Shown here: positions 3,168 to 32,737 of the stretch, piece by piece
Numbering within the stretch: the stretch's first letter is position 1
Layout of the letters: every line of letters begins with the position of its first letter
NCBI RefSeq assembly: GCF_001589285.1
Contig: NZ_JEMA01000473.1
Coordinates: 1-32,737 of the forward strand
From: Sorangium cellulosum
GTDB lineage: Bacteria > Myxococcota_A > Polyangia > Polyangiales > Polyangiaceae
Direction: 5' to 3'
Length of the DNA stretch: 32,737 nt
Made by a program: the position numbers and the translations under genes
The notes under the pieces: generated by a model
Database searches by the model: none
The model's input: the letters and a program-made list of their open reading frames with translations, nothing else
Told to the model about the DNA's origin: nothing

Positions 3168-3516
3168 CGACGAGCGACACGTGTCGCCGCCATGATTCTC
3201 CCTGCGGCGCCGGCTACCTGTTCCCCATCGCGACGAAGGAGGAAGCGATACATGGTGTCACGCTCGGGCGATCGGCACGCCACGGTGGCCGACGGCACGG
3301 ATCGGAACGTCGCGCGCCAGCGGCAGAGGCCACCCTGGTGTCCCAGATTACAGCGCCTGGGTTGACGACTGTCCGGGGGGTCGACTGGGACGCCGAACCG
3401 TGCAGCCCGTCCACATACACCGGAGCCGCAAGTTCCTCCGGTGCGAGGTACACCGCGGGGCCAGGCGGAGCGTATACTCACCGCCAGCACTCAGCGCACC
3501 GGTCGAGCGGATCCCC
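3168..3516 (+). other. Non-coding gap before the TIR gene
   Basis: This 349-base gap has no convincing gene. Short open frames on both strands are Arg/Ser-rich and lack a ribosome binding site or family resemblance. It may hold the promoter of the TIR gene, but I cannot pick a clear -35/-10 pair. Confidence 0.4.
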
Positions 3517-4578
3517 GTGTCTCCTCTCACAGTCTTCCTCGCGTACGCCCCAAAGGATGAAGCGCTGCGCGAAGAGCTCGCGGCGCATCTGGCCGTGCTC
3601 CGCCACAGACGCCTCCTGCGCGACGTCCATGAAGGGAGCGTCGTGGCGGGCGAGGAGAGGGCGCAGGCGCTGCGCGAAGAGCTCAACGCGGCGCGTGTGA
3701 TCCTGCTCCTCGTGAGCGCGGATTTTCTCGCATCGCCCTCCTGCGCCGAGCAGACTTCCTTGGCGCTAGATCGGCAACGTGCGGGGCAAGCGCGTGTCGT
3801 TGCCGTCATCCTGCGCGCCTGCGATTGGCAGGGTGCACCATTCGACGGGCTCACCACCCTGCCGCGCACAGGTAAGCCGGTGACGAGTCACAAGAATCGC
3901 GACAAGGCCTGGAGTACCGTAACGCGCGATATCCGCGCGCTCTTGGAGGAGCTCGCGAGCGCACCGGGGTGCTCGGGTGCGCAGAGCTCCGACCTCACCG
4001 CGCCTGAGGACAGGCTGCGCTCGGGAGGGCTTCCCCCAGCACCTGACACGGCCCGGGGGCTCACGCCGCCAAGCCTCGCGCTCCAAGAGGACCGTCTCCT
4101 CGCGCCAAGGCACACGCCCCGCCACGCGCCGACACCTTCGAGCGCGAGTACACCAACGAGCGGCCCGAGGCGATCGGAGGCATCCGCGAGCCCCAGCACA
4201 GTCCGGCTTGCACGACAGAATCTCTCCGCGCCAGCCACGGCGCCGCGAACGCCGGCCGCTCACTCTGCCGGGGGCGACGTTCTGCTGGTTGATCCATCGC
4301 CGCTCACGCGTCGCGCGGGGCCGCTCATCGAAGTGAGCTATGACTCGCGCAAAACGTTCATCGATCTACTGAACACCATCTACGTCACTGCGGGAATCCG
4401 CCCATTCGTGCCGCCCTTCACGTACCAGGTGAGCTGGCTGCTTCGCGATGGCAAGAGCGGACGCGTGTTTCGAGTCGGCTCTCGCGAGAACCTGCGGCAC
4501 AGCGGCGGGAAGACACTCGGTGAGCTCGGCATTTTCCCAGGGATGACGCTGCAGGTCGTCGCAGCAAAGGACACGTAG
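3517..4578 (+). CDS. TIR-domain protein with C-terminal ubiquitin-like domain
   Basis: The N-terminal 150 or so residues form a bacterial TIR domain: LTVFLAYAPKDEALREEL (first strand and helix), ARVILLLVSADFLAS, then VVAVILRACDWQGAPF and GKPVTSHKNRDKAW, all typical of prokaryotic TIRs. A Pro/Ser/Thr-rich linker of about 115 residues follows. The last 85 residues (from about 269) look like a beta-grasp domain ending in LGELGIFPGMTLQVV, as in ubiquitin/YukD-like folds. Prokaryotic TIRs often cleave NAD. Here the helix that usually carries the catalytic Glu reads SPSCAEQTSLAL, so the Glu is shifted or replaced, and the usual WhDr segment is degenerate. The GTG at 3517 is chosen because the TIR fold begins there; the frame extends to an ATG at 3400. 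It could be a defence protein, a secreted effector or a binding module. Confidence 0.8.
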   Translation: MSPLTVFLAYAPKDEALREELAAHLAVLRHRRLLRDVHEGSVVAGEERAQALREELNAARVILLLVSADFLASPSCAEQTSLALDRQRAGQARVVAVILRACDWQGAPFDGLTTLPRTGKPVTSHKNRDKAWSTVTRDIRALLEELASAPGCSGAQSSDLTAPEDRLRSGGLPPAPDTARGLTPPSLALQEDRLLAPRHTPRHAPTPSSASTPTSGPRRSEASASPSTVRLARQNLSAPATAPRTPAAHSAGGDVLLVDPSPLTRRAGPLIEVSYDSRKTFIDLLNTIYVTAGIRPFVPPFTYQVSWLLRDGKSGRVFRVGSRENLRHSGGKTLGELGIFPGMTLQVVAAKDT

Positions 4579-9158: not shown

Positions 9159-9179
9159 CGCGGTCCGCTCAGGCAAGGT

Positions 9180-9227
9180 GCCGCCGGATCGAGGACCCGG
9201 CGGCCCGGCGCAGCGTGACCGTCACGC
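9180..9227. terminator. GC-rich hairpins between convergent genes
   Basis: GCCGCCGG (9180-9187) pairs with CCGGCGGC (9197-9204), and just after it GCGTGAC-C-GTCACGC forms a second perfect palindrome (9213-9227) that covers the stop codon of the DUF6817 gene. There is no U-tract. The position, between the convergent histidine kinase and RiPP operon, suggests transcription stopping or mRNA-end protection. Confidence 0.45.
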
Positions 9228-9782
9228 GTGCTGATGCTGGCTCGCCTGCTCGCCGAGGACGGACTGGCAGTGCGCCCAGGCGCCGTCGCTGAGCAGCGGG
9301 CGCGTGCGGCTGAACAGCTCGAACAGCTCGGCGCCGTACATGGCGCGGAAGCCGGGGTTGTGGCTGGCGATGTCGACCTCGTTGGCGGCGGTGATCTCCA
9401 TGAGGCCGCGGAGCCGATCGTCGCGGGGGGTCTTGACCTCGCTGGTGAAGCGATCACGCCACTGCTCCGACGGATCCATGAGCCGCGGATAGGTGTACTC
9501 GCGATCGCACGCGCCGTAGAAGTAGACGAGCTCCTCCGCGTAAGCGCCGATGATCGAGGCCACGCGCGGGCGCTCGTCGAGCGAGAGCATCGTGTAGAAC
9601 GGATCGGGCGAGCCGTCGGGCGCGAAGAGCGCATGCAGGAGCCCCGCCTCGCGGATCTCGTCGCTCGCGCCCCACTTCCGCAGCATCTGCTCGACCCGGA
9701 GGAGGTGGGCCAGCAGCGTCCCTCCCGGGTGCTTGACCGTTCCTGCTCCGAGGGACACCAGCAATGCGACGCTCTGTTCCAT
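9222..9782 (-). CDS. DUF6817-like (HD-related) protein, last gene of the pentapeptide RiPP operon
   Basis: This 186-residue protein has GTVKHPGGTLLAHLLRVEQ near the start, then AGLLHALFAPDG and IGAYAEELVYFYGACDR. The pattern of conserved His residues and helices resembles the DUF6817 family, which looks like a divergent HD-type metal domain. No biochemical role is established to my knowledge. A hydrolase or metal-binding maturation role is possible but inferred. The ATG at 9782 has GGAGGG six bases upstream. The gene follows the second P450 after 52 bases on the same strand and ends the gene run that starts with the MKYCW peptide, so it may act in the maturation, release or resistance of that product. 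Confidence 0.7.
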   Translation of the reverse strand: MEQSVALLVSLGAGTVKHPGGTLLAHLLRVEQMLRKWGASDEIREAGLLHALFAPDGSPDPFYTMLSLDERPRVASIIGAYAEELVYFYGACDREYTYPRLMDPSEQWRDRFTSEVKTPRDDRLRGLMEITAANEVDIASHNPGFRAMYGAELFELFSRTRPLLSDGAWAHCQSVLGEQASQHQHA

Positions 9783-9834
9783 GATCAACCCTCCAGACAA
9801 TGTCGATGCATCTCGATGATGAAATCCGGGCCTG

Positions 9835-11040
9835 TCACCACGCGACGGGCAGCCGGTACAGGCCAAAGGTGCGGCGGTCGTACTTGAACGGCAGCGCCTC
9901 GACATCGCCGACGATCCGCAGCGCCGGCAGCCGCTCGAACAACGTGCGGTAGCCGATCTCGAGCTCCGCGCGCGCCAGGTTCTGCCCGAGGCACCGGTGA
10001 ATGCCATACCCGAACGCGAGGTGGTGGCGCGCGCTCCGGTGGATGTCGAAGTCGTCGGGGCTCGCGAACGCCCGCTCGTCGCGGTTGGCGGACGCGCCGA
10101 GCACGAAGAGGCCCTCGCCGGCGCGCACGCGCTGGCCGCCGATCTCGATGTCCTCGAGGGCCACCCGATCGAACGCAACCCAGTCCACGATGGAGTGGTA
10201 CCGCAGGAGCTCCTCCACCGCGTCGGGCCACAGCGCGGGCCGGGCGCGCAGCTCGGCGAGCGCCCCTGGGTTCTGGAGGAGCGTGAACACCCCGAGCGAG
10301 AGCATGTTCGCCGTCGTCTCATGCCCGGCCACGAGCAGGAGGAACACCACGCCCACCAGCGCGTCGTGCGACAGCTCGCCTGTCGCGCGCCGCTCCGTGG
10401 CCAGGCGGCCAATCAGGTCGTCGCCGGGGCTGGCCTCGGCCGCCGTGACCAGATCATCGAGGTAGCCCCAGAGCTCCGTGCGCGCGCGGATCGCCTCCTC
10501 CGTGCTGAAGAAGCCGGCGATCATCCGGTTCGTACGCGACTGGAAGACCTCGCGATCCTTGTACGGCACGCCGAGCAACTGGCAGATGACCAGGGTCGCG
10601 ATCGGGAAGGCAAACGACTCCACCAGATCGGCCTCGCGGCCCCGCGATATCGCGTCGATGCGCTCGTTCACCACGTCCTGAATGAACGAGCCCAGCTCGC
10701 GGATGCGCCGCGCGCTGAACTCGCCCGCCAGCATGCGCCGGTAGACGTCGTGCTCGGGCGGGTCCATGTCGATGAACTGCCCCGCCTGCTCCTGCGCCGT
10801 CCCCGCCATCGCCGCGAACGGATGCCCCGGCCGCGTCGGATCGGTGCTGATGCGACGATCGGTGAGCACGTCGCGCGCCTCGGAGTGCCGCGTCACGACC
10901 CAGATCGGCGGTCCATCGCGGAACGACACGCGCACGAGCGGCGCCTTGTCGCGCAGGGATCCGTACTCCGGCGGCGGCGCGTACGGGCAGCGCCGCGGCA
11001 TGGGGAAAGCCGGGAGGTCCTCTTCTTTGATGCGATTCAT
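9835..11040 (-). CDS. Cytochrome P450 (second P450 of the pentapeptide locus)
   Basis: This 401-residue bacterial class I P450 has all the standard motifs: I-helix AGHETTAN with the oxygen-activating acid-alcohol pair, K-helix EELLRY (ExxR), and the heme-ligand loop FGYGIHRCLGQNLARAE with its Cys thiolate. The N-terminal part (RVSFRDGPPIWVVTRHSEARDVL, FIDMDPPEHDVYRRML) is also typical. It would need a ferredoxin and reductase encoded elsewhere. The ATG at 11040 has GGGAG seven bases upstream. An alternative in-frame ATG at 11076 overlaps the stop of the MFS gene as TGATG and would add 12 residues. In this operon it may carry out a second oxidation or cross-link on the MKYCW-derived peptide; that role is inferred. 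Confidence 0.93.
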   Translation of the reverse strand: MNRIKEEDLPAFPMPRRCPYAPPPEYGSLRDKAPLVRVSFRDGPPIWVVTRHSEARDVLTDRRISTDPTRPGHPFAAMAGTAQEQAGQFIDMDPPEHDVYRRMLAGEFSARRIRELGSFIQDVVNERIDAISRGREADLVESFAFPIATLVICQLLGVPYKDREVFQSRTNRMIAGFFSTEEAIRARTELWGYLDDLVTAAEASPGDDLIGRLATERRATGELSHDALVGVVFLLLVAGHETTANMLSLGVFTLLQNPGALAELRARPALWPDAVEELLRYHSIVDWVAFDRVALEDIEIGGQRVRAGEGLFVLGASANRDERAFASPDDFDIHRSARHHLAFGYGIHRCLGQNLARAELEIGYRTLFERLPALRIVGDVEALPFKYDRRTFGLYRLPVAW

Positions 11041-11075
11041 TGTGTGGCTCCCTGGAATCGAACGGTGAGCGCTCA

Positions 11076-12338
11076 TCAGGCGGGCTCCATCGACGCGCTG
11101 GGCAGGTCGCGCATGCGGACCAGCGGGGAGAGGAGCAGCGGCAAGAGGGAGAGCAGCAGGCCGCCGATCCCCATCCACAGCGCCGCGCGCACGCCGTACC
11201 GCTCGCCGAGCGCGCCACCGAGGAGCGAGCCGAGCGGCATGGTGCCCCAGACCAGGAATCGCATGGTCGCGTTCATCCGGCCGAGCAGGCGCTCGGGCGT
11301 GATCGCCTGACGAAAGCTGATCTGCGAGACGTTGTAGACCACGATGCCGATCGCCTCCACGAACGTGCCGGCGACGAAGAACGCGAGCCCGGCGCCCGGC
11401 CCGGTGAACGGGACGAGCAGCGCGAACGGCTGAAACAGGAGCGGACCGAGCCAGATGATCCGCGCCGAGCCGATGCGCCGGGTCAGCGGCCCGACAACGG
11501 CCCCACCGACGAGCCCGCCGAGCGCCCCCGCCGCCAGGAGCACCCCGTAGACCTCGGGCGAGAGGCCCAGCTCCCGGAGCAGGAACAGCGCCTGTACGGC
11601 CAGCGCGGCCGAGAAGGCCATGTTGGCGAGCGCCGACCGCAGCGCGATCATGCGCAGGATCGGGTGGCCGAGCACGAAGCGAACGCCCTCGCGGATCTCG
11701 TGGAGGAGGCCCCGGGCGCGGGCGCGCTGCGGCGCCGGCTCGTCGGCGTCGATGCGGCCGAGCAGCAGCGCCGAGCAGACGAAGCTCACCGCGTCGGCCA
11801 CGATCGCGACGGGCGCCGAGAGCAGGTTGACAAGCCAGCCTCCGACGCTCGGCCCCGCGACCTGCGCGCCGGAGTTGACGATCTCCAGCTTGCCATTGCC
11901 GTCCACGAGCCGATCCCGGTCGACCAGCGTGGGGACGTAGCTCTGGTAGGCCACATCGAAGAACACCCGGGCGACGCTCACGCCGAGGGCCACCACGTAG
12001 AGCTGCAGCAAGCTGAGCTTGCCGAGCCACCACGCGACAGGGATCGAGCCGAGCAGGGCGGCGCGGACCAGATCGGTGTGGATGAGGATCGAGCGCCGGC
12101 GCATCCGGTCCACCCACACCCCCGCAGGAAGCCCGATGAGCGCGAACGCCGACGTCTGCGCGGCGAACAGGAGGCCGACCTGGAACGGCCCGGCGTCGAG
12201 CGCCAGGATGGCCACGAGCGGCAGCGCCACCAGCGTGATCTGGGTGCCGACCTGGCTGATGGTGTCGGCGCCGAAGAGCAGCATGAAATTGCGATGGCGG
12301 AGCAGGCTCGGCGCCGCGATCGTGGCCGCCTCTGTCAC
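11076..12338 (-). CDS. MFS exporter (DHA-type), probable product efflux
   Basis: This 420-residue membrane protein has about 12 hydrophobic helices. The family motif between helices 2 and 3 reads GLPAGVWVDRMRRRSILI, and the related mid-protein loop reads GPLTRRIGSARIIWLGPLL. These are typical of Major Facilitator drug/proton antiporters of the enterobactin-exporter type (EntS/MFS_3). The GTG start overlaps the stop of the hydroxylase gene as GTGA, so the genes are translationally coupled. In this operon the most likely job is export of the mature peptide and self-protection. Confidence 0.9.
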   Translation of the reverse strand: MTEAATIAAPSLLRHRNFMLLFGADTISQVGTQITLVALPLVAILALDAGPFQVGLLFAAQTSAFALIGLPAGVWVDRMRRRSILIHTDLVRAALLGSIPVAWWLGKLSLLQLYVVALGVSVARVFFDVAYQSYVPTLVDRDRLVDGNGKLEIVNSGAQVAGPSVGGWLVNLLSAPVAIVADAVSFVCSALLLGRIDADEPAPQRARARGLLHEIREGVRFVLGHPILRMIALRSALANMAFSAALAVQALFLLRELGLSPEVYGVLLAAGALGGLVGGAVVGPLTRRIGSARIIWLGPLLFQPFALLVPFTGPGAGLAFFVAGTFVEAIGIVVYNVSQISFRQAITPERLLGRMNATMRFLVWGTMPLGSLLGGALGERYGVRAALWMGIGGLLLSLLPLLLSPLVRMRDLPSASMEPA

Positions 12339-13396
12339 GAGAGCCTCGCGCGCTCCGCGGGCAGATCGAGCACCCGGGTCTGGTCCCCCACGCGCGAGCG
12401 CAGCGTCACGATCGGCGCCCGGGTCGGGTCGAGCGTGACTTGCACGGTCCGCTCGAGGGTCCATCCGGCGAAGCGGAACTCGCCCTCTCCGACGTGCACG
12501 AGCGAGAACGCAGGCTCGCCGTCGATCACGAGGACGAGCCGGTCGCCACGAATGTCGATCGCGGCCCGCCGCGTGCGCGGCGCCGTGAGGAACGCGCCGT
12601 CCGGCTCCTCGAAGGAGTGGAACGAGCTGGGCATCTGGAAGCTGCACCGGCACGCGTCGCGCTCGGCGAGGGAGAGCCGCACGGCCGGCGCCGCGAACAG
12701 CGTGCTCGCCGCGACCGCGGGCGACCGGAACTCCGCAGGGAAGAGCTGCAGCAGCTCCGGCGTGGGGTGGCAGTCGATCACCAGGTGAATCCGCGTCACC
12801 GGATCGCTGTTGCGCACGATGTGCGGACGGGTGAAGTCGGCATACCAGACCTCACCCGGCTGCCAGCGGTGGGTCTCCTCCTGGATGGTGAGGATCGCTC
12901 CGGGGGTCGTGACGATCGGGACGTGCAGCCGGACGATCCCCCACGGCAGGCTGTGCTTCGTGTCGTTGTGCACCGGGCTCGCCGCGCCCGGCCCCAGCGA
13001 CTGCAGCCGCACGCAGCGCAGCGGCGCCGGGATACGCGCCAGCACCTCGGCCAGATACGGCGCCTCGCGCAGCCACGGCGTGTCGGCGAACTCCTCGAGC
13101 GACGGGCCGCCTGGGTCGGTCCGGTCCGGATCGCCGCCGATGCTGCGCAACGGCAGCTTGCGCCAGTCGACGTCGGCGCCGCGGCTCACGCCCTCGCCGG
13201 TGAGGATCGTCGGCTTGGACCACTCCCTTTCGCGCAGCGCGCTCACGTCGGCCAGCATCCGCTCGACGTCGAAGCCGAGCGAGAGGCGCGCTGTCGCGGG
13301 CAACCTCGCGAGGATGGGCGCCAGCGGCCAGGGGTCGAGATCGCCCGTGCTCTGGTCGGGCGGCAGCGTGTTCATGGGGGCAGCGCTCGTCATCAT
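12335..13396 (-). CDS. Aspartyl/asparaginyl beta-hydroxylase-family Fe(II)/2-oxoglutarate oxygenase
   Basis: The protein has 353 residues. The catalytic double-stranded beta-helix spans about residues 115-210. Metal ligands can be read as His143 and Asp145 (PVHNDTKH) and His192 (TRPHIVRN), with Arg202 (TRIHLVIDCHPTPEL) placed to bind 2-oxoglutarate. The family member AspH has Gly in place of the Asp, so an intact H-x-D...H triad is notable. About 135 residues follow the catalytic fold (LVLVIDGEPAFSLVHVGEGEF), a beta-rich region I do not recognise. The first of two adjacent ATGs overlaps the stop of the P450 as ATGA. It may hydroxylate a side chain of the pentapeptide or its product. The substrate is inferred from operon context only. 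Confidence 0.87.
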   Translation of the reverse strand: MMTSAAPMNTLPPDQSTGDLDPWPLAPILARLPATARLSLGFDVERMLADVSALREREWSKPTILTGEGVSRGADVDWRKLPLRSIGGDPDRTDPGGPSLEEFADTPWLREAPYLAEVLARIPAPLRCVRLQSLGPGAASPVHNDTKHSLPWGIVRLHVPIVTTPGAILTIQEETHRWQPGEVWYADFTRPHIVRNSDPVTRIHLVIDCHPTPELLQLFPAEFRSPAVAASTLFAAPAVRLSLAERDACRCSFQMPSSFHSFEEPDGAFLTAPRTRRAAIDIRGDRLVLVIDGEPAFSLVHVGEGEFRFAGWTLERTVQVTLDPTRAPIVTLRSRVGDQTRVLDLPAERARLS

Positions 13397-14565
13397 GCGG
13401 CCTGGAGGGTGAGGGGTAGACGATCGGGATAACGAACCGTGGCGCGGCGCTGCCGGCGCACGGGCCCCGCGAGGCGCAGCGGCGCGCGCAGCCGGAGCAT
13501 GCTGCCGAGGAGCGCCTGCAGGACGATCCGCGCGAGCTGGGTCCCGGTGCAGGCGTGCGGCCCCCGGCCGAAGGCGAGGTGTCGATTCGGCCGGCGGTCC
13601 AGCATGAGCTCGTCGGGCGCGGCGAACTGCTCGGGATCGCGGTTGGCCGCGCCGAACAGGAGGAGCACGACCTGGCCGCGCTCGATGCGCGTCTCGTCGA
13701 TCGTGGTCGCCTCGAGGCAAATACGGCTCGTGCCCTGGATGGGCCCGTCGTAGCGCATGAGCTCGTCGACGCCTGTCTCGAGCAGGCGATTGTCGCGCAG
13801 ACGATCGAGCGCGTCGGGGTGCTGGAACATCGCCAGGACCATGTTGGACGCCGCGGACACCGTCGTGCTGAAGCCGGCCAGGAACATCACCCGCGCCGTG
13901 CTCCACACCGCGGCCTCCGGGACGCCGGCGCCGTGCCGCTCGTCGAGGACCTGGGCGAGCAACCCGGGCCTCAGCCCGTCGCCGACCCACGACTTCATGA
14001 GCTCGTTCATCTGCCCCCGGGCCGCCAGCGCCGGGCCGATCGCCTCGGGGACGAGCGCCGCGTCCATGGCGCGCTCGACGGCGTCCGACAGCGCCACGAT
14101 CGACGCGATCGCGGGCGGCTCGACGCCGAGCAGCCGGGACATCGCGGTGAGCGCGATGGGGCGCGCGACGTCGGCGGTGAAGTCGAACGACGGCGCGTCG
14201 GCGAGGCGCGCGAAGGCCGCTGTCGCTTCCGCGGCGACGAGCTCGCCGAGCCCGGAGATCGCCTGTTCGCGCAGCGCATTGGCGAACAGATCGCGGATCG
14301 GCGTGTGCTCGGGCGGGTCGAGCCCCTGCAAGCTGGGGTGCTCCGCGCTGGGGGGCGCCTCGTGACCGGCGCGCCGCGCGTCGCTGGCGAACCTGGCCGG
14401 ATCGCGCAGCACGGCGATGCAGTCGCGGTAGCGAGTCAGGACCCAGGAGTCGAGTCGATCGTGCCATAGCACCGGGCACGACGCGCGCAGGCGCGCGTAG
14501 ATCGGGTATGGATCTGCGACGGCTTCGGGAGACAGCGGATCATAGTCGATCGGGCTGCGGGGCAT
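13393..14565 (-). CDS. Cytochrome P450, candidate biarylitide-type peptide cross-linking enzyme
   Basis: This is the first long gene after the MKYCW peptide gene, the same order as precursor and P450 in biarylitide loci (bytA-bytO). The 390-residue product has ELMRY (ExxR) and FGRGPHACTGTQLAR with heme-ligand Cys339. The I-helix reads LAGFSTTVSAAS: Ser233 replaces the usual Asp/Glu before the conserved Thr, which should change proton delivery during oxygen activation. I chose the ATG at 14565, which has AGAGGA six bases upstream, over the ATG at 14580. The predicted reaction is an oxidative ring closure between Tyr3 and Trp5 (or Cys4) of the pentapeptide. This is inferred from gene order and precedent. 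Confidence 0.9.
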   Translation of the reverse strand: MPRSPIDYDPLSPEAVADPYPIYARLRASCPVLWHDRLDSWVLTRYRDCIAVLRDPARFASDARRAGHEAPPSAEHPSLQGLDPPEHTPIRDLFANALREQAISGLGELVAAEATAAFARLADAPSFDFTADVARPIALTAMSRLLGVEPPAIASIVALSDAVERAMDAALVPEAIGPALAARGQMNELMKSWVGDGLRPGLLAQVLDERHGAGVPEAAVWSTARVMFLAGFSTTVSAASNMVLAMFQHPDALDRLRDNRLLETGVDELMRYDGPIQGTSRICLEATTIDETRIERGQVVLLLFGAANRDPEQFAAPDELMLDRRPNRHLAFGRGPHACTGTQLARIVLQALLGSMLRLRAPLRLAGPVRRQRRATVRYPDRLPLTLQAA

Positions 14566-14601
14566 CGGGTCCTCTCGCATCGGTTGCTCTCATCAAAGAG
14601 C

Positions 14602-14636
14602 GAGGGGGCCAAGCCGGGATGCGACTTGGCCCCCTC
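14602..14636 (-). promoter_or_regulatory. 12-bp perfect hairpin between peptide gene and P450
   Basis: GAGGGGGCCAAG (14602-14613) and CTTGGCCCCCTC (14625-14636) pair perfectly around an 11-base loop. It begins 14 bases after the pentapeptide stop codon and ends 36 bases before the P450 start. Only a short CTTTG follows in the direction of transcription, so it should act as a leaky terminator or RNA 3'-end stabiliser. That would give far more peptide mRNA than enzyme mRNA, a common RiPP arrangement. Confidence 0.8.
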
Positions 14637-14650
14637 TGGTGGCCTGTAGA

Positions 14651-14668
14651 TTACCAGCAGTACTTCAT
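14651..14668 (-). CDS. Six-codon gene for pentapeptide MKYCW, putative minimal RiPP precursor
   Basis: On the minus strand, ATG AAG TAC TGC TGG TAA encodes Met-Lys-Tyr-Cys-Trp. It follows a perfect AAGGAGG ribosome binding site (14674-14680) with a 5-base spacer, which is the best translation start in the window together with that of the repeat peptide at 20094. A hairpin and a cytochrome P450 gene follow directly. Known biarylitide precursors are pentapeptides such as MRYYH and MRYLH, in which a P450 joins Tyr3 to the aromatic residue 5. Here the Met-basic-Tyr-X-aromatic pattern is kept, but residue 5 is Trp and residue 4 is Cys. No other reading of this spot makes a credible gene. The cross-link chemistry is inferred; the open frame, ribosome binding site and neighbours are seen directly. 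Confidence 0.85.
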   Translation of the reverse strand: MKYCW

Positions 14669-14712
14669 GGGGCCCTCCTTTTTGCGAGGTGTCGCAAGCA
14701 AGAACGGAGTCG

Positions 14713-14741
14713 AAGGTAAGCGGCAGCAGGTCAGTCGTCAA
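14713..14741 (-). promoter_or_regulatory. Candidate sigma-70-like promoter for the pentapeptide operon
   Basis: On the minus strand, a -35 box TTGACG (14736-14741) is followed after 17 bases by TACCTT (14713-14718) as a weak -10 box. Transcription would start near 14706, giving a leader of about 38 bases before the pentapeptide ATG. The -35 box is the same as in the promoter of the repeat-peptide operon at 20240. The poor -10 match hints at activator dependence. Confidence 0.45.
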
Positions 14742-14819
14742 AGACAATCGCCATGTCGAACGACGGCATCGCAGCATCTCGACGATCGGGTGTGAGCCAC
14801 GTCGACATACGTGCGCTCC

Positions 14820-14834
14820 CATAATCAAATTATG
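14820..14834. promoter_or_regulatory. AT-rich palindrome, possible operator
   Basis: CATAAT-CAA-ATTATG is a perfect inverted repeat with 6-base arms, about 80 bases upstream of the candidate pentapeptide promoter. Such an AT-rich palindrome is striking in DNA of this GC content and could bind a dimeric regulator. Alternatively, the CATAAT arm could be a -10 box, but no good -35 box is placed for it. Confidence 0.4.
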
Positions 14835-14974
14835 TCACGCGGCCCCGGAACACAGATGCCTTATCGGGTCACGTGTTGATTTGTTAAGTTGCGTGACGCT
14901 CTGTGAAGAAGCGTCGTGCGTTCGTCCGGAACGAAAGATTTTTGGCGCCTCGCGCGGCGGCCCGGTCGATGTCC

Positions 14975-16735
<1,761 letters not shown>

Positions 16736-27543: not shown

Positions 27544-28818
27544 TTACCCAAAACGTCCTGCAATTGCTAGCACGTCCGATATACTGGACACGTGACGGGA
27601 CATTCGCTGAATGCCGCACTCCTCGACGAGCCACACGGCATCTCCATCCACGAAGACCTGCGCGGCCGCGTCGGAGAGGTCTTCGCGGAGACTGAGCCCG
27701 GGCGGCAGCGCCTCTTCCGAACGGCACGTCGCCTCCGACGCATAACCGTTCTCGAGGAGGTAGATATGACGTTCGAACCAGCGCTCGACGCTCGTGCCCA
27801 CCAGGCGCACTTGCACCTCGTCGTCGTCTGGCTCCTGCCATGAGGCCCACACCCCGCCCGCCTCGTCCACGTAGATGCCCGTGCGCACCGCCGTGTTCTC
27901 GATCCAGCCAATGAACCAGGCTCCGTTGTAAGGGTGAACTGGCGCAGACCAGATGCCGGAGGAGGTCCGTTCACGGATCACGCTCGCCGCCCACGGGGCA
28001 ACGATCGAGATCCCCCGTTGCCCACGGAACCCGCCCGCGAGCTCGTCCACGGCGAGCACCGCATTCGTGAGCGACGCCGATGCCCGGTATCTCTCGAGCT
28101 GGGCGCGCAGGCCATCCTGATCTCGCAAACCCGGCTGCCACTCGCCGAACGAGGTGGCTCGCGCGAGCTTATCGGCATGACGCGGAACCGTGACGATACA
28201 GCCGCCGGGCTTCATCTGGAGCTGCGTCTCGAAAGCGCCCTGGAGCACCCCGCGGACCCAGCAGCCGCCCTCCGTCTCGTGAAGCTCGAACGCCTCCGGG
28301 AAGTACCGATCCAAGTGGTCCATCGACCCGAGCAGCGCTCCGGGCTGCGGAAGACCGGCGAGCGGGATATAGGAGTACCTCGCTGGCGCGGGCGAGAGCC
28401 CGGGCGGCAGGGGGTGTGCGAGCAACGCCCGGAGCCGTTCGCTGGTCGCGCACGCCACGGTCAATGCGTCGGCCAGCAGCAGGACGATGGCGCCCTCGAA
28501 CCACAGCAGCTGCTCCGAAGGCCCGAGCGAGCGAACCACGCGCGGCGGCCCAAGCGCGCCCTCGACCCACCCGGTCATGAGCGAGGCCTGCGCCCCGTGA
28601 TGGTGGCGCTGGCGGAGGACGAGCCCCTCGGACACCAGCCGCGCCGCGTCGCGGAGGGCGGCAGGATCATCGGCTGGCACTGGAGGTCGCGGCTCGAACG
28701 GGTTTCCGGAGCGTGGAATGCGCACCACCGCTCCGTCGTGCGGTGCGAGCGAGCCCAGCGGTCCCAGGTCCTCGATTCCGGGGGCGCTCGGTAGATCGTC
28801 GCGCTCTGTGATGCTCAT
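27544..28818 (-). CDS. Putative immunity or accessory protein coupled to the Rhs toxin
   Basis: This 424-residue soluble protein starts with an ATG that overlaps the Rhs stop codon as ATGA, so it is made directly after the toxin. This is the usual place for the cognate immunity gene. It has no signal peptide or membrane span. It contains PSEQLLWFEGAIVLLLADALTVAC in the middle and an aromatic beta-rich C-terminal half (GAWFIGWIENTAVRTGIYVD). I do not recognise a family, and it is longer than most immunity proteins, so it may be a two-domain protein or an adaptor. The immunity call is by position. Confidence 0.7.
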   Translation of the reverse strand: MSITERDDLPSAPGIEDLGPLGSLAPHDGAVVRIPRSGNPFEPRPPVPADDPAALRDAARLVSEGLVLRQRHHHGAQASLMTGWVEGALGPPRVVRSLGPSEQLLWFEGAIVLLLADALTVACATSERLRALLAHPLPPGLSPAPARYSYIPLAGLPQPGALLGSMDHLDRYFPEAFELHETEGGCWVRGVLQGAFETQLQMKPGGCIVTVPRHADKLARATSFGEWQPGLRDQDGLRAQLERYRASASLTNAVLAVDELAGGFRGQRGISIVAPWAASVIRERTSSGIWSAPVHPYNGAWFIGWIENTAVRTGIYVDEAGGVWASWQEPDDDEVQVRLVGTSVERWFERHIYLLENGYASEATCRSEEALPPGLSLREDLSDAAAQVFVDGDAVWLVEECGIQRMSRHVSSISDVLAIAGRFG

Positions 28819-31800
28819 GGGCGTGGCCCCCAGGTCCCGGACGAGTTGTCGAAGACCCCTGGATTGAGCCCCGCCACTGAGCCCGTCCCCCCGGCTCGTC
28901 GATATGCGTCCTCATTGGCGGCCCTCATGGCGGGGTCGTTCATGCTCTGTGCGAGCGGCGAAGCTGGAAGCGTGATTGGCCCCGGTGCGCCGGCCGGGTT
29001 CACGACGCGCGGTCCCTCTGGGTTCTGGAGCCCACCCGGCACATTGGTAGCATCCCTCGTCGAGGCACGGCCCCCCGCGACCGTGGGTGACGGCGGGCGC
29101 GGATCGGCGAGCGCCCAGAGCCGGGGGATCGTCTGCGAGCAGTTCGGGCACGCCGCCAGATCCTTCGTTCCCGCTCGGCTCGAGATGCCACCAATCTCCG
29201 AGAGCGCCCTGCTGAGGTTCTGTCGTCCCTGCGGCGTGCCCGGGTCGCAGCTCTGCCCGGGGTTGCGACTCTCCCAGCTCCGGAGGTGCGACGAGAGCGC
29301 CGCTGGCTCCGAGCAGGAGGCGGCGTCCGTATCCCCGCCGCGCGCGTTCCGGATCGGCAGCGCCGCCGCCACGGCAGGGTGCAGGTCCGCCTCGCGGGAG
29401 GACGTGCCCGTCCCGATCGCGTTTCCATTGCGATCGGTGAGTGTTGTCACGCTCCGCGCGAGGCCATCGCGATCCATCCAGACGAGCGGCCGCCCGTTCA
29501 CATACCCGTACGCTTCGAGCCCTCCCTCGAGCCCCAGCGGCTCCGGGCTCAGGTACGTCGCGCTCGCCGGATCGAAATACCGCCATCGGTTGTAGTGGAG
29601 CCCCGTCTCCGGCTCGTACCAGTGCCCCGGGAACCGGCTCAGCGTGGCGGCGGCATCGCCCACAATGACCCGGCCGTACGCCCCGGTCTCGAAGACCTGG
29701 TCGACCGTCCCGTCGGCGCCCACGAGCGCCAACGGCACAGGCGCCCCGTCCCTGTGCACGAGGTACTTCCACGCGCCCGGGCCGGCCTCGGTGTCGATCG
29801 CCTGCGCGATCGGCGCCGGCGAGCCCGGCGCGTACGCGTAGCGCCGACGCTCCACCAGCGTGAACGGCGTGGCCGCGCCGGGGGTGCTCGCCTCGCGCTC
29901 CACCGTCTCCTCCAGGTGGTCCTCGCCATCCCAGCGGTAGCGGTGCCTCACGAGCGCCGCGCCTCGCCGCACGACGCGCTTCTCCAGGCGCCGCGCGAAC
30001 CCGTCGTACACGAACTCGAGCCGGGTGCCGTCGGGCAACGTCACGCCCGAGAGCAGGCCGAGCACGCTCCAGGCGTAGGTGGTCACCGCGGCGCCATCCA
30101 CCTTCTTCACGAGCCGGCCGCGCGCGTCGTACGTGAGGGTCGCGCCGTTCGTGGTCACGAGCCGCCCGCCGCCCAGGTGGGACTGCGCGCGGCCGTCGAT
30201 CCAGCGCACGTCGCCGCGCGGCGAGAGCACGTAGTCCTCGGCCCCGGCCCGCCGCTCGTGCCGCTTCTGCGCGATACGGCCGCGCGCGTCGTACGCGAAC
30301 GACTGCGCCCCGCGATCGCGATCGGCGAGCACCTGGAGTTCGTTGGCCGGCGACCACCCATAGTCGAACCGCAGGGTCTCCAGGCCGCCGAGCTTGCCGA
30401 CCCACGTGGGCTCGCCCGGGCGGACGACCGCGGCGCCACGGCCGATGACGGCCGAGCGGACGACGTTGCCATGCGCGTCCCTCGTGAGCTCGATCCCGCC
30501 CCCGCCCGCGAAGAGGCGCCCCACCTCGACGCTCGCCGGGTCGTACGCGAACGTCGCGATCGGCTGGTGCGCTCCCCCGGCATCCGAGAAGACGAGCGCG
30601 GAGCACCGCCCCGCGGCGTCGCGCGGCGTGGCGATCGCGAAGGCACCCGGGACGATCACCGCCGTGCGATTCAGGCCGGCGTCGTAGAGGTGGCGGATGG
30701 ACGTCGCGGACGATGGCTCGTTCACCAGCTCGGTGTCCTCGCGGACGCAGCGCCCTCGCGCGTCGTACGCGTATTGCGTGCGGACCGCCTCCGTCTCGAA
30801 GAGCAGGACGCGCCCGCGCTCGTCGTACTCCAGCTTGTGGAACGTGTCGTCGGAGAAGGCACGCCCGATGATGCGATCGAGATCGTCGTAGGCAAGCTCG
30901 ACGAACTCGCCGTCGTCGAAGGTGATCCTCGACAGCCGCCCGGCCCGGTCGTTCCTGTACCGCAGCGTGCGGCCGTCGAAGGTGCGCTCGGAGAGGATCC
31001 GCCCCTCGAGATCCCGCTCGATGGTGTGCACGTCGCCCTCCTCGTTGACGATGCGCACCATGTCGAGCTCGCGATCGTAGGCGTACGACACGCGCGAGCC
31101 GTCGCTCCGCTCGACCGCGATCACCTCGCGGAGACCCGCGTACACCAGCCGGTACCAGCGGCCGTCCGCGTCGCGCTCGCCGTTGAAGCGGCCGGCCTCG
31201 TCGTAGCTCATGAACGTGCGGGCGCCGAGCGGCGAGCAGTGCTCCACCACGCGCCCCATCGCGTCGTAGATCCACCGGTGGACCCCGTCCTTCTCGTCCC
31301 GCATCTCCACGAGCCGCCCGAGGAAGTCGTAGCGCAGCGCGCGCGTGCCGCCGTCCGGCTCGACGATCTCGACGCGATTGCAGAGCGCGTCGTACCTCAT
31401 CGACGTCTCGCCGCCGCCTTCGGTCTCGGCGTGGACCAGGCAGCCGCGCTCGTCGTAGCGGAAGCTCGCGACCAGCCCCATCGCGTCCGAGAGGTAGATC
31501 AGGTTGCCGTTCGGATCGCGCGCGTGCTGCGTCTCGAGGCCGTCGGGGCCGCGCGTGGTCACGACGTTCCCGCGTTCGTCGTACACGTACTCCGTCGCCC
31601 GCCCCAGCGGGTCGACGACGCGGTACACGCCGCCGGCCTCGCCCATCCTCCATGCGCGCCCGAGCCCGTCGCGGTATCCGACGAGCTCGCCCGACTCGTC
31701 GAAGGCGTTGTCGTGCACCTGCCCCGCCCAGACGATCCGGTCCGCCTTGCCGAAGGCGTTGGCCTCGACCCTTCGCAGGGCGCGCGACGTGATGACGTTG

Positions 31801-32737
31801 TTCTCGCCCGCGCCGTACTCGATCTTCGCGTGCAGGAACCCCTTGGCGCGGCTGCCGTCCGCGAGCGTCTCGGGCACGCTCTCGGCCAGGAGCGCGCGCT
31901 CGTCGGGATCGTTGCACCACGTCTCCACGCAGCGACCGTGGTTGTCGTGGCGGTAGTGCACCTCGAGGCCCGTGGGCCAGCGCTCCAGCACGAGCCGGTG
32001 GTCTGCGTCGTACGCGAAGGTCATCGCGTGCCCCAGCGCGTCGCGCGCGGCCACGAGATCTCCGCGATCGTCGTACTCGTACGTGCGGAAGGACGTCCAG
32101 GCGCCCCTCGCGGACGCGTTCTTCACCTCGAACGCTGCGATGCGGCCGTCGCGGTGCCGCCGCACGCGGAGCAGCCGGCCCACGCTGTCGTTCACGAACT
32201 GGAGCGGACCGGTCCCGTTCTCGTAGAAGAGCCGGGCCTGGTTGCCGTTGCGGTCCAGGAGCGCGCTGAGGCGGAGCTCGTTGTCGATGGCAAAGGCATG
32301 CTCGAAGAGCCGCGTGATGCCGTCGTCGGCCTTGAGGAAGTAGCCGTCACGGGTCCGCGTCAGCAGCCCGACGGGGAGCTTCACGGTCTCGCCCTCGTCG
32401 GGGCAGCGGCCCTCGCACGCGAGCGCTGTGGCCGTGACGACGCGCACCCTGCGGCGGCGAAGCTCGATGATGCGCCAGCCGAGCGAGTGGTTCCAGCCGT
32501 GGCCGAGGCCGTAATCGAGGTCGCGCTGCGCGGAGCTGTAGGCGCGCTCGATCACGAGCGGAAAGGCTCCCGGAAGCGCCATGTCGGTGACGGCAAGGGT
32601 GTAGACGCGGCCCGTGACCGGATCGATGGGGTGTCCGGCCTGCGTTCCTCCTCCGCCCCCGTGCGTCGGGTTGGGGCAGCCGCCGCCGCTGCCCTGGCCG
32701 CAGCTCCCGGCGTTGCGGCCACCGCCCTGGGCGCCGT
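28815..32737 (-). CDS. Rhs/YD-repeat protein with deaminase-like C-terminal toxin (N-terminus outside window)
   Basis: The frame is open to the right edge. The visible 1306 or so residues begin with a Gly-rich stretch and GHPIDPVTGRVYTLAVTDMALPG (32583-32640), the classic Rhs entry sequence, so the ATG at 32582 is internal. About 20 YD repeats follow (YDERGRV, YDALCNR and others), building the Rhs cage. The core ends near PEPLGLEGGLEAYGYVNG...DRDGL. The variable C-terminus (about 28815-29460) has CSEP (29304-29315) and CPNC (29139-29150), which fits a zinc-dependent YwqJ-like deaminase with Cys-x-Glu and Cys-x-x-Cys. After it come about 95 Pro/Ala/Gly-rich residues. The toxin would be released inside the shell and act on nucleic acids or nucleotides in a rival cell. 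The deaminase call is tentative. Confidence 0.88.
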   Translation of the reverse strand, partial: GAQGGGRNAGSCGQGSGGGCPNPTHGGGGGTQAGHPIDPVTGRVYTLAVTDMALPGAFPLVIERAYSSAQRDLDYGLGHGWNHSLGWRIIELRRRRVRVVTATALACEGRCPDEGETVKLPVGLLTRTRDGYFLKADDGITRLFEHAFAIDNELRLSALLDRNGNQARLFYENGTGPLQFVNDSVGRLLRVRRHRDGRIAAFEVKNASARGAWTSFRTYEYDDRGDLVAARDALGHAMTFAYDADHRLVLERWPTGLEVHYRHDNHGRCVETWCNDPDERALLAESVPETLADGSRAKGFLHAKIEYGAGENNVITSRALRRVEANAFGKADRIVWAGQVHDNAFDESGELVGYRDGLGRAWRMGEAGGVYRVVDPLGRATEYVYDERGNVVTTRGPDGLETQHARDPNGNLIYLSDAMGLVASFRYDERGCLVHAETEGGGETSMRYDALCNRVEIVEPDGGTRALRYDFLGRLVEMRDEKDGVHRWIYDAMGRVVEHCSPLGARTFMSYDEAGRFNGERDADGRWYRLVYAGLREVIAVERSDGSRVSYAYDRELDMVRIVNEEGDVHTIERDLEGRILSERTFDGRTLRYRNDRAGRLSRITFDDGEFVELAYDDLDRIIGRAFSDDTFHKLEYDERGRVLLFETEAVRTQYAYDARGRCVREDTELVNEPSSATSIRHLYDAGLNRTAVIVPGAFAIATPRDAAGRCSALVFSDAGGAHQPIATFAYDPASVEVGRLFAGGGGIELTRDAHGNVVRSAVIGRGAAVVRPGEPTWVGKLGGLETLRFDYGWSPANELQVLADRDRGAQSFAYDARGRIAQKRHERRAGAEDYVLSPRGDVRWIDGRAQSHLGGGRLVTTNGATLTYDARGRLVKKVDGAAVTTYAWSVLGLLSGVTLPDGTRLEFVYDGFARRLEKRVVRRGAALVRHRYRWDGEDHLEETVEREASTPGAATPFTLVERRRYAYAPGSPAPIAQAIDTEAGPGAWKYLVHRDGAPVPLALVGADGTVDQVFETGAYGRVIVGDAAATLSRFPGHWYEPETGLHYNRWRYFDPASATYLSPEPLGLEGGLEAYGYVNGRPLVWMDRDGLARSVTTLTDRNGNAIGTGTSSREADLHPAVAAALPIRNARGGDTDAASCSEPAALSSHLRSWESRNPGQSCDPGTPQGRQNLSRALSEIGGISSRAGTKDLAACPNCSQTIPRLWALADPRPPSPTVAGGRASTRDATNVPGGLQNPEGPRVVNPAGAPGPITLPASPLAQSMNDPAMRAANEDAYRRAGGTGSVAGLNPGVFDNSSGTWGPRP

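Follow-up and report, generated by a model that had tools for sequence, protein, structure and literature searches.

Organization of the locus

The locus lies on the minus strand of a 32,737-nucleotide stretch of DNA from Sorangium cellulosum (hereafter, the window), to which all positions refer. Its smallest gene (14651..14668, minus strand) reads ATG AAG TAC TGC TGG TAA and encodes the peptide MKYCW, and the Shine-Dalgarno sequence AAGGAGG (14674..14680, minus strand) stands in front of it with a spacer of 5 nt to the ATG. Both features are as described in the initial annotation, which had been made without database searches, and we infer that MKYCW is made by a ribosome. A gene of 18 bases ranks among the smallest, and biarylitide precursor genes have been called the smallest known (PMC13417212, which, like the other papers named below, is cited from excerpts). 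MKYCW has the five residues of a biarylitide precursor, with aromatics at residues 3 and 5, and its residue 5 is Trp, one of the three residues (Tyr, His or Trp) expected there. The candidate promoter that had also been proposed was not recovered, as a scan of positions 13360-15000 for the sigma-70 consensus returned 0 promoter-like sites.

On its 3' side, the precursor gene is followed by a GC-rich hairpin (GCTCTTTGAT; 14602..14636, minus strand), identified by folding and scanning, which resembles a terminator or attenuator with few T behind it. The hairpin had been noted before with a stem of 12 bp, and we find it to comprise 15 pairs, 11 of which are G-C. The next gene (13393..14565, minus strand) encodes a cytochrome P450 of 390 aa (PF00067, 72 bits), again as first described; the distance from the A of the MKYCW ATG to its own ATG is 103 nt, with an alternative ATG at 14580.

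The locus had been called minimal, a description that does not hold, with four more same-strand genes tightly packed after this first P450 gene. Because the four joints are formed by overlap or by gaps of at most 52 nt, the operon probably continues from the P450 gene through genes for an AspH-type hydroxylase, an MFS exporter, a second P450 and a DUF6817 protein. The AspH-type protein (12335..13396, minus strand; start at 13396 or 13375) is by its domain (PF05118) an Asp/Asn beta-hydroxylase-type Fe(II)/2-oxoglutarate enzyme, likely a tailoring enzyme, and keeps the HxD...H motif (HND...RPH). The MFS transporter (11076..12338, minus strand; scanned from 12341, one codon longer), whose GTG start overlaps the AspH stop, is by its domain a likely exporter. 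The second P450 (9835..11040, minus strand), a predicted tailoring enzyme of the hydroxylase type, is 28% identical to the first. The DUF6817 protein (9222..9782, minus strand) is assigned by its domain, and its structure model (pLDDT 93.7) suggests an HD-like fold.

Upstream, a flavin monooxygenase-like gene on the same strand (14975-16639) ends 307 nt before the precursor gene, and its product is closest to the neopentalenolactone/pentalenolactone D synthase PtlE (315 bits; cut-off 1100). Pentalenolactone synthase, in turn, is the nearest match of the second P450 (229 bits; cut-off 700), and these two genes possibly serve a separate, terpenoid-type function. Elsewhere, the window encodes a TIR-domain protein (3400-4575, plus strand) and an RHS-repeat protein with a YwqJ-like deaminase end (28818-32582, minus strand), an arrangement like that of polymorphic toxins.

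Short frames near related P450 genes

We searched for short frames around genes of related P450s, using the best 80 of 103 stretches that encode relatives of the window P450 and accepting five-codon frames of the form M-x-[YWH]-x-[YWHF] with a Shine-Dalgarno match of at least 4 bases. A frame, always of the form M-x-[Y/H]-x-[Y/H], lies nearby in 76 of these 80 loci (best 80 of 103), a number that does not count independent events, as many of the 80 loci are close kin. As controls, we used 29 ordinary P450s of the host's order, for which only the near-upstream and downstream spans were scanned; in the matching spans, 71 of the 80 related loci (best 80 of 103) have the frame, versus 0 of the 29 controls. 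The loci among the best 80 of 103 in which no frame was found by these criteria are L037, L043, L044 and L109. Around the bytO-like genes of L037, L043 and L044, the search covered 1.8 kb upstream and the stretch just downstream without finding a five-codon frame, and three further bytO-like loci (L128, L131 and L132) have none inside the scanned spans.

The position of the frame differs between loci: among the best 80 of 103, it lies at most 330 nt upstream of the P450 gene in 40, downstream in 31 and farther upstream in 5, with none found in 4. The order seen in the window is therefore one of several, not exactly the order of biarylitide loci in general, as had been stated. Frames placed as in the window (103 nt) are found in relatives with available DNA at 51-60% identity, where MRYAY or MRYDY lies 92-138 nt upstream (L032-L036, L058, L122, L126, L135 and L138). 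The relatives that could be read as DNA reach at most 61% identity. The 76 frame-bearing loci (from the best 80 of 103) hold 15 motif types, such as MKYWH, MSYDH, MRYLH and MRYAY, and neither Cys at residue 4 nor Trp at residue 5 occurs in any of these 15 types. Two other arrangements were seen in passing. In L099-L103, L106 and L107, frames just downstream of the P450 gene encode MRHIH, MRHVH or MRHAH, with His at both cross-link positions, and L098 (Streptomyces palmae) has three copies of MRYLH, 74 nt apart, at -305, -231 and -157 from the P450 match.

The hairpin is part of the near-upstream layout. An uninterrupted stem of at least 8 pairs is present in the spacer of 40 of the 41 near-upstream loci, the window included (shuffle means 5.7-7.9), and the fold of the whole spacer has z < -2 in 25 of the 41 (median z, -2.18); for the window, comparison with 100 dinucleotide shuffles gives z = -4.54. 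In the myxarylin locus, too, the bytA-bytO spacer is shown with a predicted secondary structure, according to the legend (PMC8708641). If the hairpin acts as an attenuator, partial read-through could yield precursor in excess over enzyme.

Family and active site of the predicted cross-linking P450

For phylogenetic analysis, 48 rows were chosen from the relatives; SlyP itself, the enzyme of the MRYAY precursor of Streptomyces lydicamycinicus, is outside the tree. The window P450 groups with loci that have a precursor, those of P450Blt (L094) and AchB (L104) among them, which makes it a bytO-family P450 close by its presumptive precursor. It falls in a clade of 15 rows (support 98/94), made up of Sorangium and some Streptomyces rows, in which one precursor, MKYCW, has been read. 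The sister clade has 12 rows (99/96), and all six with readable precursors have Tyr at residue 5 (five MRYAY, one MRYDY).

The active-site residues point in the same direction as the tree. V226, L229, S233 and T234 of the window P450 align to A231, H234, E238 and S239 of P450Blt, and this V/L/S/T set is common to the window, to 7 of 7 MRYAY/MRYDY rows listed and to further MRYAY/MRYDY rows. The enzymes of His5 precursors that we compared have His, Gln, Asp or Asn at P450Blt position 234. Some rows of the window clade depart from this set: Val and Leu are present in most, P0008 has Met and Asn, and a few rows differ at the third and fourth positions. Leu or Val at the site of P450Blt His234 has been tied to C-C linkage, with Leu224 in SlyP (PMC12951456), and Leu229 places the window P450 with this C-C subgroup, which comprises SlyP and the enzymes of YYH and YFH. 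In addition, the P450Blt double mutant A231V/H234L, which gains activity on YxY (PMC10929621), has at these two places the residues of the window P450.

Two further positions set the window clade or the window itself apart. Position 169 of P450Blt, described as affecting residue 5 of the peptide (PMC12186263), aligns with Glu164 of the window P450. Glu is found there in 15 of 15 window-clade rows and also in P0042, a protein outside the tree, versus 0 of 12 sister-clade rows (which have Val, Thr or Asn) and 0 of 18 further loci. Position 69 of P450Blt, described as near Arg-2, is Trp in 12 of the 15 window-clade rows, and Ala in the window, in its nearest two relatives (P0005 and P0006) and in the distant P0048. 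We hypothesize that the pockets for residues 5 and 2 may have been altered together with Trp5 and Lys2.

Finally, the two P450s of the operon differ in their I-helices. Because the ordinary oxygen-activating motif is present in the second P450 (AGHETT), whereas the cross-linking P450 has AGFST, without the acid, we infer that the second would act as a hydroxylase and the first as a coupler.

Putative tailoring genes and distribution of the locus

Genes resembling the other members of the operon recur, in part, at related loci. Downstream of the bytO-like gene, 30 of the 80 loci (best 80 of 103; 31 tblastn rows, with one locus split) have a same-strand AspH homologue, whether the precursor has Asp4, Ala4, Trp4 or Ile4, and P0188 from Saccharothrix variisporea, presumably SavH, is 51% identical to the window AspH. 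Homologues of the MFS transporter are found at 47-48% identity in L035 and L036, and more weakly in L033, L034, L043 and L058. Relatives of the bytO, AspH and DUF6817 proteins appear to share one short contig in each of two records (14,287 and 6,775 bases), as judged by equal size and source. As an aside, two DUF6817 relatives, P0250 and P0248, are fused to ferredoxin, the former belonging to the 6,775-base record.

The named proteins that match at 86-97% identity belong to Sorangium (P0006, P0126, P0127 and P0245-P0247), in line with the origin of the window. Five other genomes of the genus gave no P450 match above 36% among the matches listed (best 10 candidates per genome) and no DUF6817 relative at 1e-15, and the locus therefore appears to be patchy within the genus.

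Predicted product and alternative explanations

Taken together, we consider it likely that the MKYCW gene encodes a biarylitide-type precursor and that the adjoining P450 cross-links Tyr3 to Trp5, most likely through a C-C bond, with Cys4 left unlinked in the ring. The C-C linkage is predicted because of the V/L/S/T set, the sister clade of MRYAY/MRYDY enzymes and the published Leu rule. The 18-base gene with its ribosome site, the hairpin, the enzyme family and the active-site signature are observed directly, and the product and its linkage are a prediction from them. In the predicted route, the P450 would take hydrogen from the phenol of Tyr3 and couple Tyr3 to the indole of Trp5, whose N-H might be held by Glu164, aligned with the P450Blt residue near residue 5 of the peptide. 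Met-Lys would be removed by a protease encoded outside the locus, the AspH-type enzyme and the second P450 may hydroxylate the peptide, and the MFS protein would export it. The analogy to the sister clade has its limits, as SlyP turns over a Trp5 peptide poorly (7%; PMC13417212), and the radical could be lost to a free thiol in the ring, which counts against a Tyr-Trp ring with an unlinked Cys4. Of the initial interpretation as a biarylitide locus, then, the pairing of precursor and P450 is borne out by homologous loci, tree and active-site residues, while the gene order, the novelty of a Tyr-Trp link, the thioether, the minimal extent and the promoter are not.

The thioether, which had been offered alongside the Tyr-Trp link, belongs to a group of outcomes in which the first or second P450 engages Cys4, either by a thioether to Tyr or Trp or in a bicyclic product that combines a biaryl with a sulfur link. 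Such an outcome is suggested by the unusual Cys4 (absent from the 15 motif types above, best 80 of 103), by the second oxidase in the operon and by the flavin monooxygenase-like gene upstream. Even so, the cross-linking P450 has the residue set of enzymes with Tyr-x-Tyr precursors, so that the thioether lacks positive support; the AGxET motif of the second P450 is that of a normal hydroxylase; and general chemistry leads one to expect strain in a bond between neighbouring residues. The scan of the five operon proteins and of the neighbours covered named neither a radical SAM protein nor any other known thioether-forming enzyme. Overall, we regard engagement of Cys4 as improbable. The P450 could alternatively nitrate or otherwise mark Tyr3, which would be released as a building block, as in the rufomycin route. 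Indeed, the solved structures closest by sequence to the window P450 include RufO (9duj), a nitrating enzyme, at 303.5 bits and P450Blt (8u2m) at 248.0 bits. Nitrating P450s of this type, however, combine Asp169/His/Glu/Val with a nitric oxide synthase gene. The RufO-like rows L066 and L067 have N165/D169/H234/E238/V239, where the window has S/E/L/S/T (with Glu164, Leu229, Ser233 and Thr234), and no nitric oxide synthase was found among the nine proteins scanned (operon and neighbours), making this route extremely unlikely.

The frame itself might also have another meaning. A short frame with a Trp codon and a terminator-like hairpin behind it would suit a leader peptide for ribosome-mediated attenuation, sensing Tyr, Cys or Trp, with the hairpin as terminator. 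We think this very unlikely, given that related frames lie downstream of the P450 gene in 31 of the 80 loci (best 80 of 103), where they cannot lead it, and that relatives keep the aromatics at residues 3 and 5 as such, and not Trp5 or Cys4. MKYCW could, moreover, be a six-codon string that arose by chance, with the P450 acting on something else. A single genome has so far yielded MKYCW. When 183 genomes of the host's order were searched for GGAGG-N3-10-ATG-x-TAY-x-TGG-stop, the MKYCW gene was the 1 match, and reversing the pattern as a control likewise gave 1 match, in a different genome; the bare frame is therefore at chance level. Its placement beside a bytO-family P450 exceeds chance, and the frame sits at the place and spacing seen in relatives, with a full AAGGAGG before it and a hairpin after it, so that a chance origin is highly improbable.

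Relation to known biarylitides

A recent survey (PMC13417212, July 2026) describes 277 biarylitide loci and nine Trp motifs, including MKYLW and MKYIW, and reports Tyr-Trp cross-links formed in vitro. The suggestion that a Tyr-Trp link would be new chemistry is thereby superseded, and with Trp5 precursors and such links already known, MKYCW is not wholly new. In the same work, SlyP (precursor MRYAY), which forms a Tyr-Tyr C-C bond, accounts for the 7% conversion of a Trp5 peptide mentioned above, and AciB (MRYWY), another YxY enzyme, converts a Trp5 peptide fully (100%) to two products. MKYCW was not found in the literature searched; the full motif table of the survey (Table S1) may list it. 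What looks new is the combination of Cys4 with Trp5, the Glu-type clade and the tailoring set.

The closest known system by precursor type is that of SlyP, as MRYAY loci form the sister clade and agree with the window in layout and in having Leu at the site that decides the linkage. The window differs from it in Trp5, in Cys4 and in having Glu, instead of Val or Thr, near residue 5. It also differs from the MRYAY loci in its second P450: four of five long MRYAY loci (L032, L034, L035 and L058) and the MRYDY locus L033 have a second P450 of the bytO family, to which that of the window is unrelated, and the fifth long MRYAY locus, L036, has none at 36% identity or more. These tandem bytO-family P450s (at about 9160-10345 in each locus) are 36-39% identical to the window P450; the three placed in the tree form a clade of their own, and in the four that were read the I-helix is unusual (NGFT/NAFT).

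The MKYLW and MKYIW loci of Actinomadura (PMC13417212) share with the window an M-K-Y-x-W precursor predicted to be a cross-linking substrate. They are actinobacterial and have Leu or Ile, not Cys, at residue 4, in a comparison made by precursor; our pattern search, which covered 65 Actinomadura-group genomes, did not recover these loci. Myxarylin from Pyxidicoccus fallax (MNYLH; PMC8708641) is likewise a myxobacterial biarylitide and has the predicted spacer structure mentioned above, but its link is Tyr-His C-N, its extra gene encodes a methyltransferase and its P450 has His226 in place of the Leu of the window. The sav locus of Saccharothrix variisporea (MRYVH; PMC13417212) also has an AspH-type tailoring gene, together with an amidinotransferase; its link, in contrast, is Tyr-His C-C, and unmodified YVH was the only form detected there.

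A broader, speculative possibility is that the Glu-type bytO clade as a whole (15 rows, from Sorangium and some Streptomyces) naturally makes Tyr-Trp C-C cyclophanes. In Sorangium, the ring Cys might then be modified by the AspH-type enzyme or the second P450, to beta-hydroxycysteine or through a second bridge that contains sulfur, and an 18-base gene would yield a three-residue macrocycle armed with a thiol; we consider this unlikely as a whole. The Glu at the place of P450Blt position 169 would be a testable marker of the choice of residue 5, and the set of AspH, P450 and DUF6817 proteins may offer tailoring steps beyond those assigned in the excerpted biarylitide literature. If the preferred reading of a C-C link between Tyr3 and Trp5 is true, the locus would encode a natural Tyr-Trp biarylitide whose ring carries a reactive thiol.
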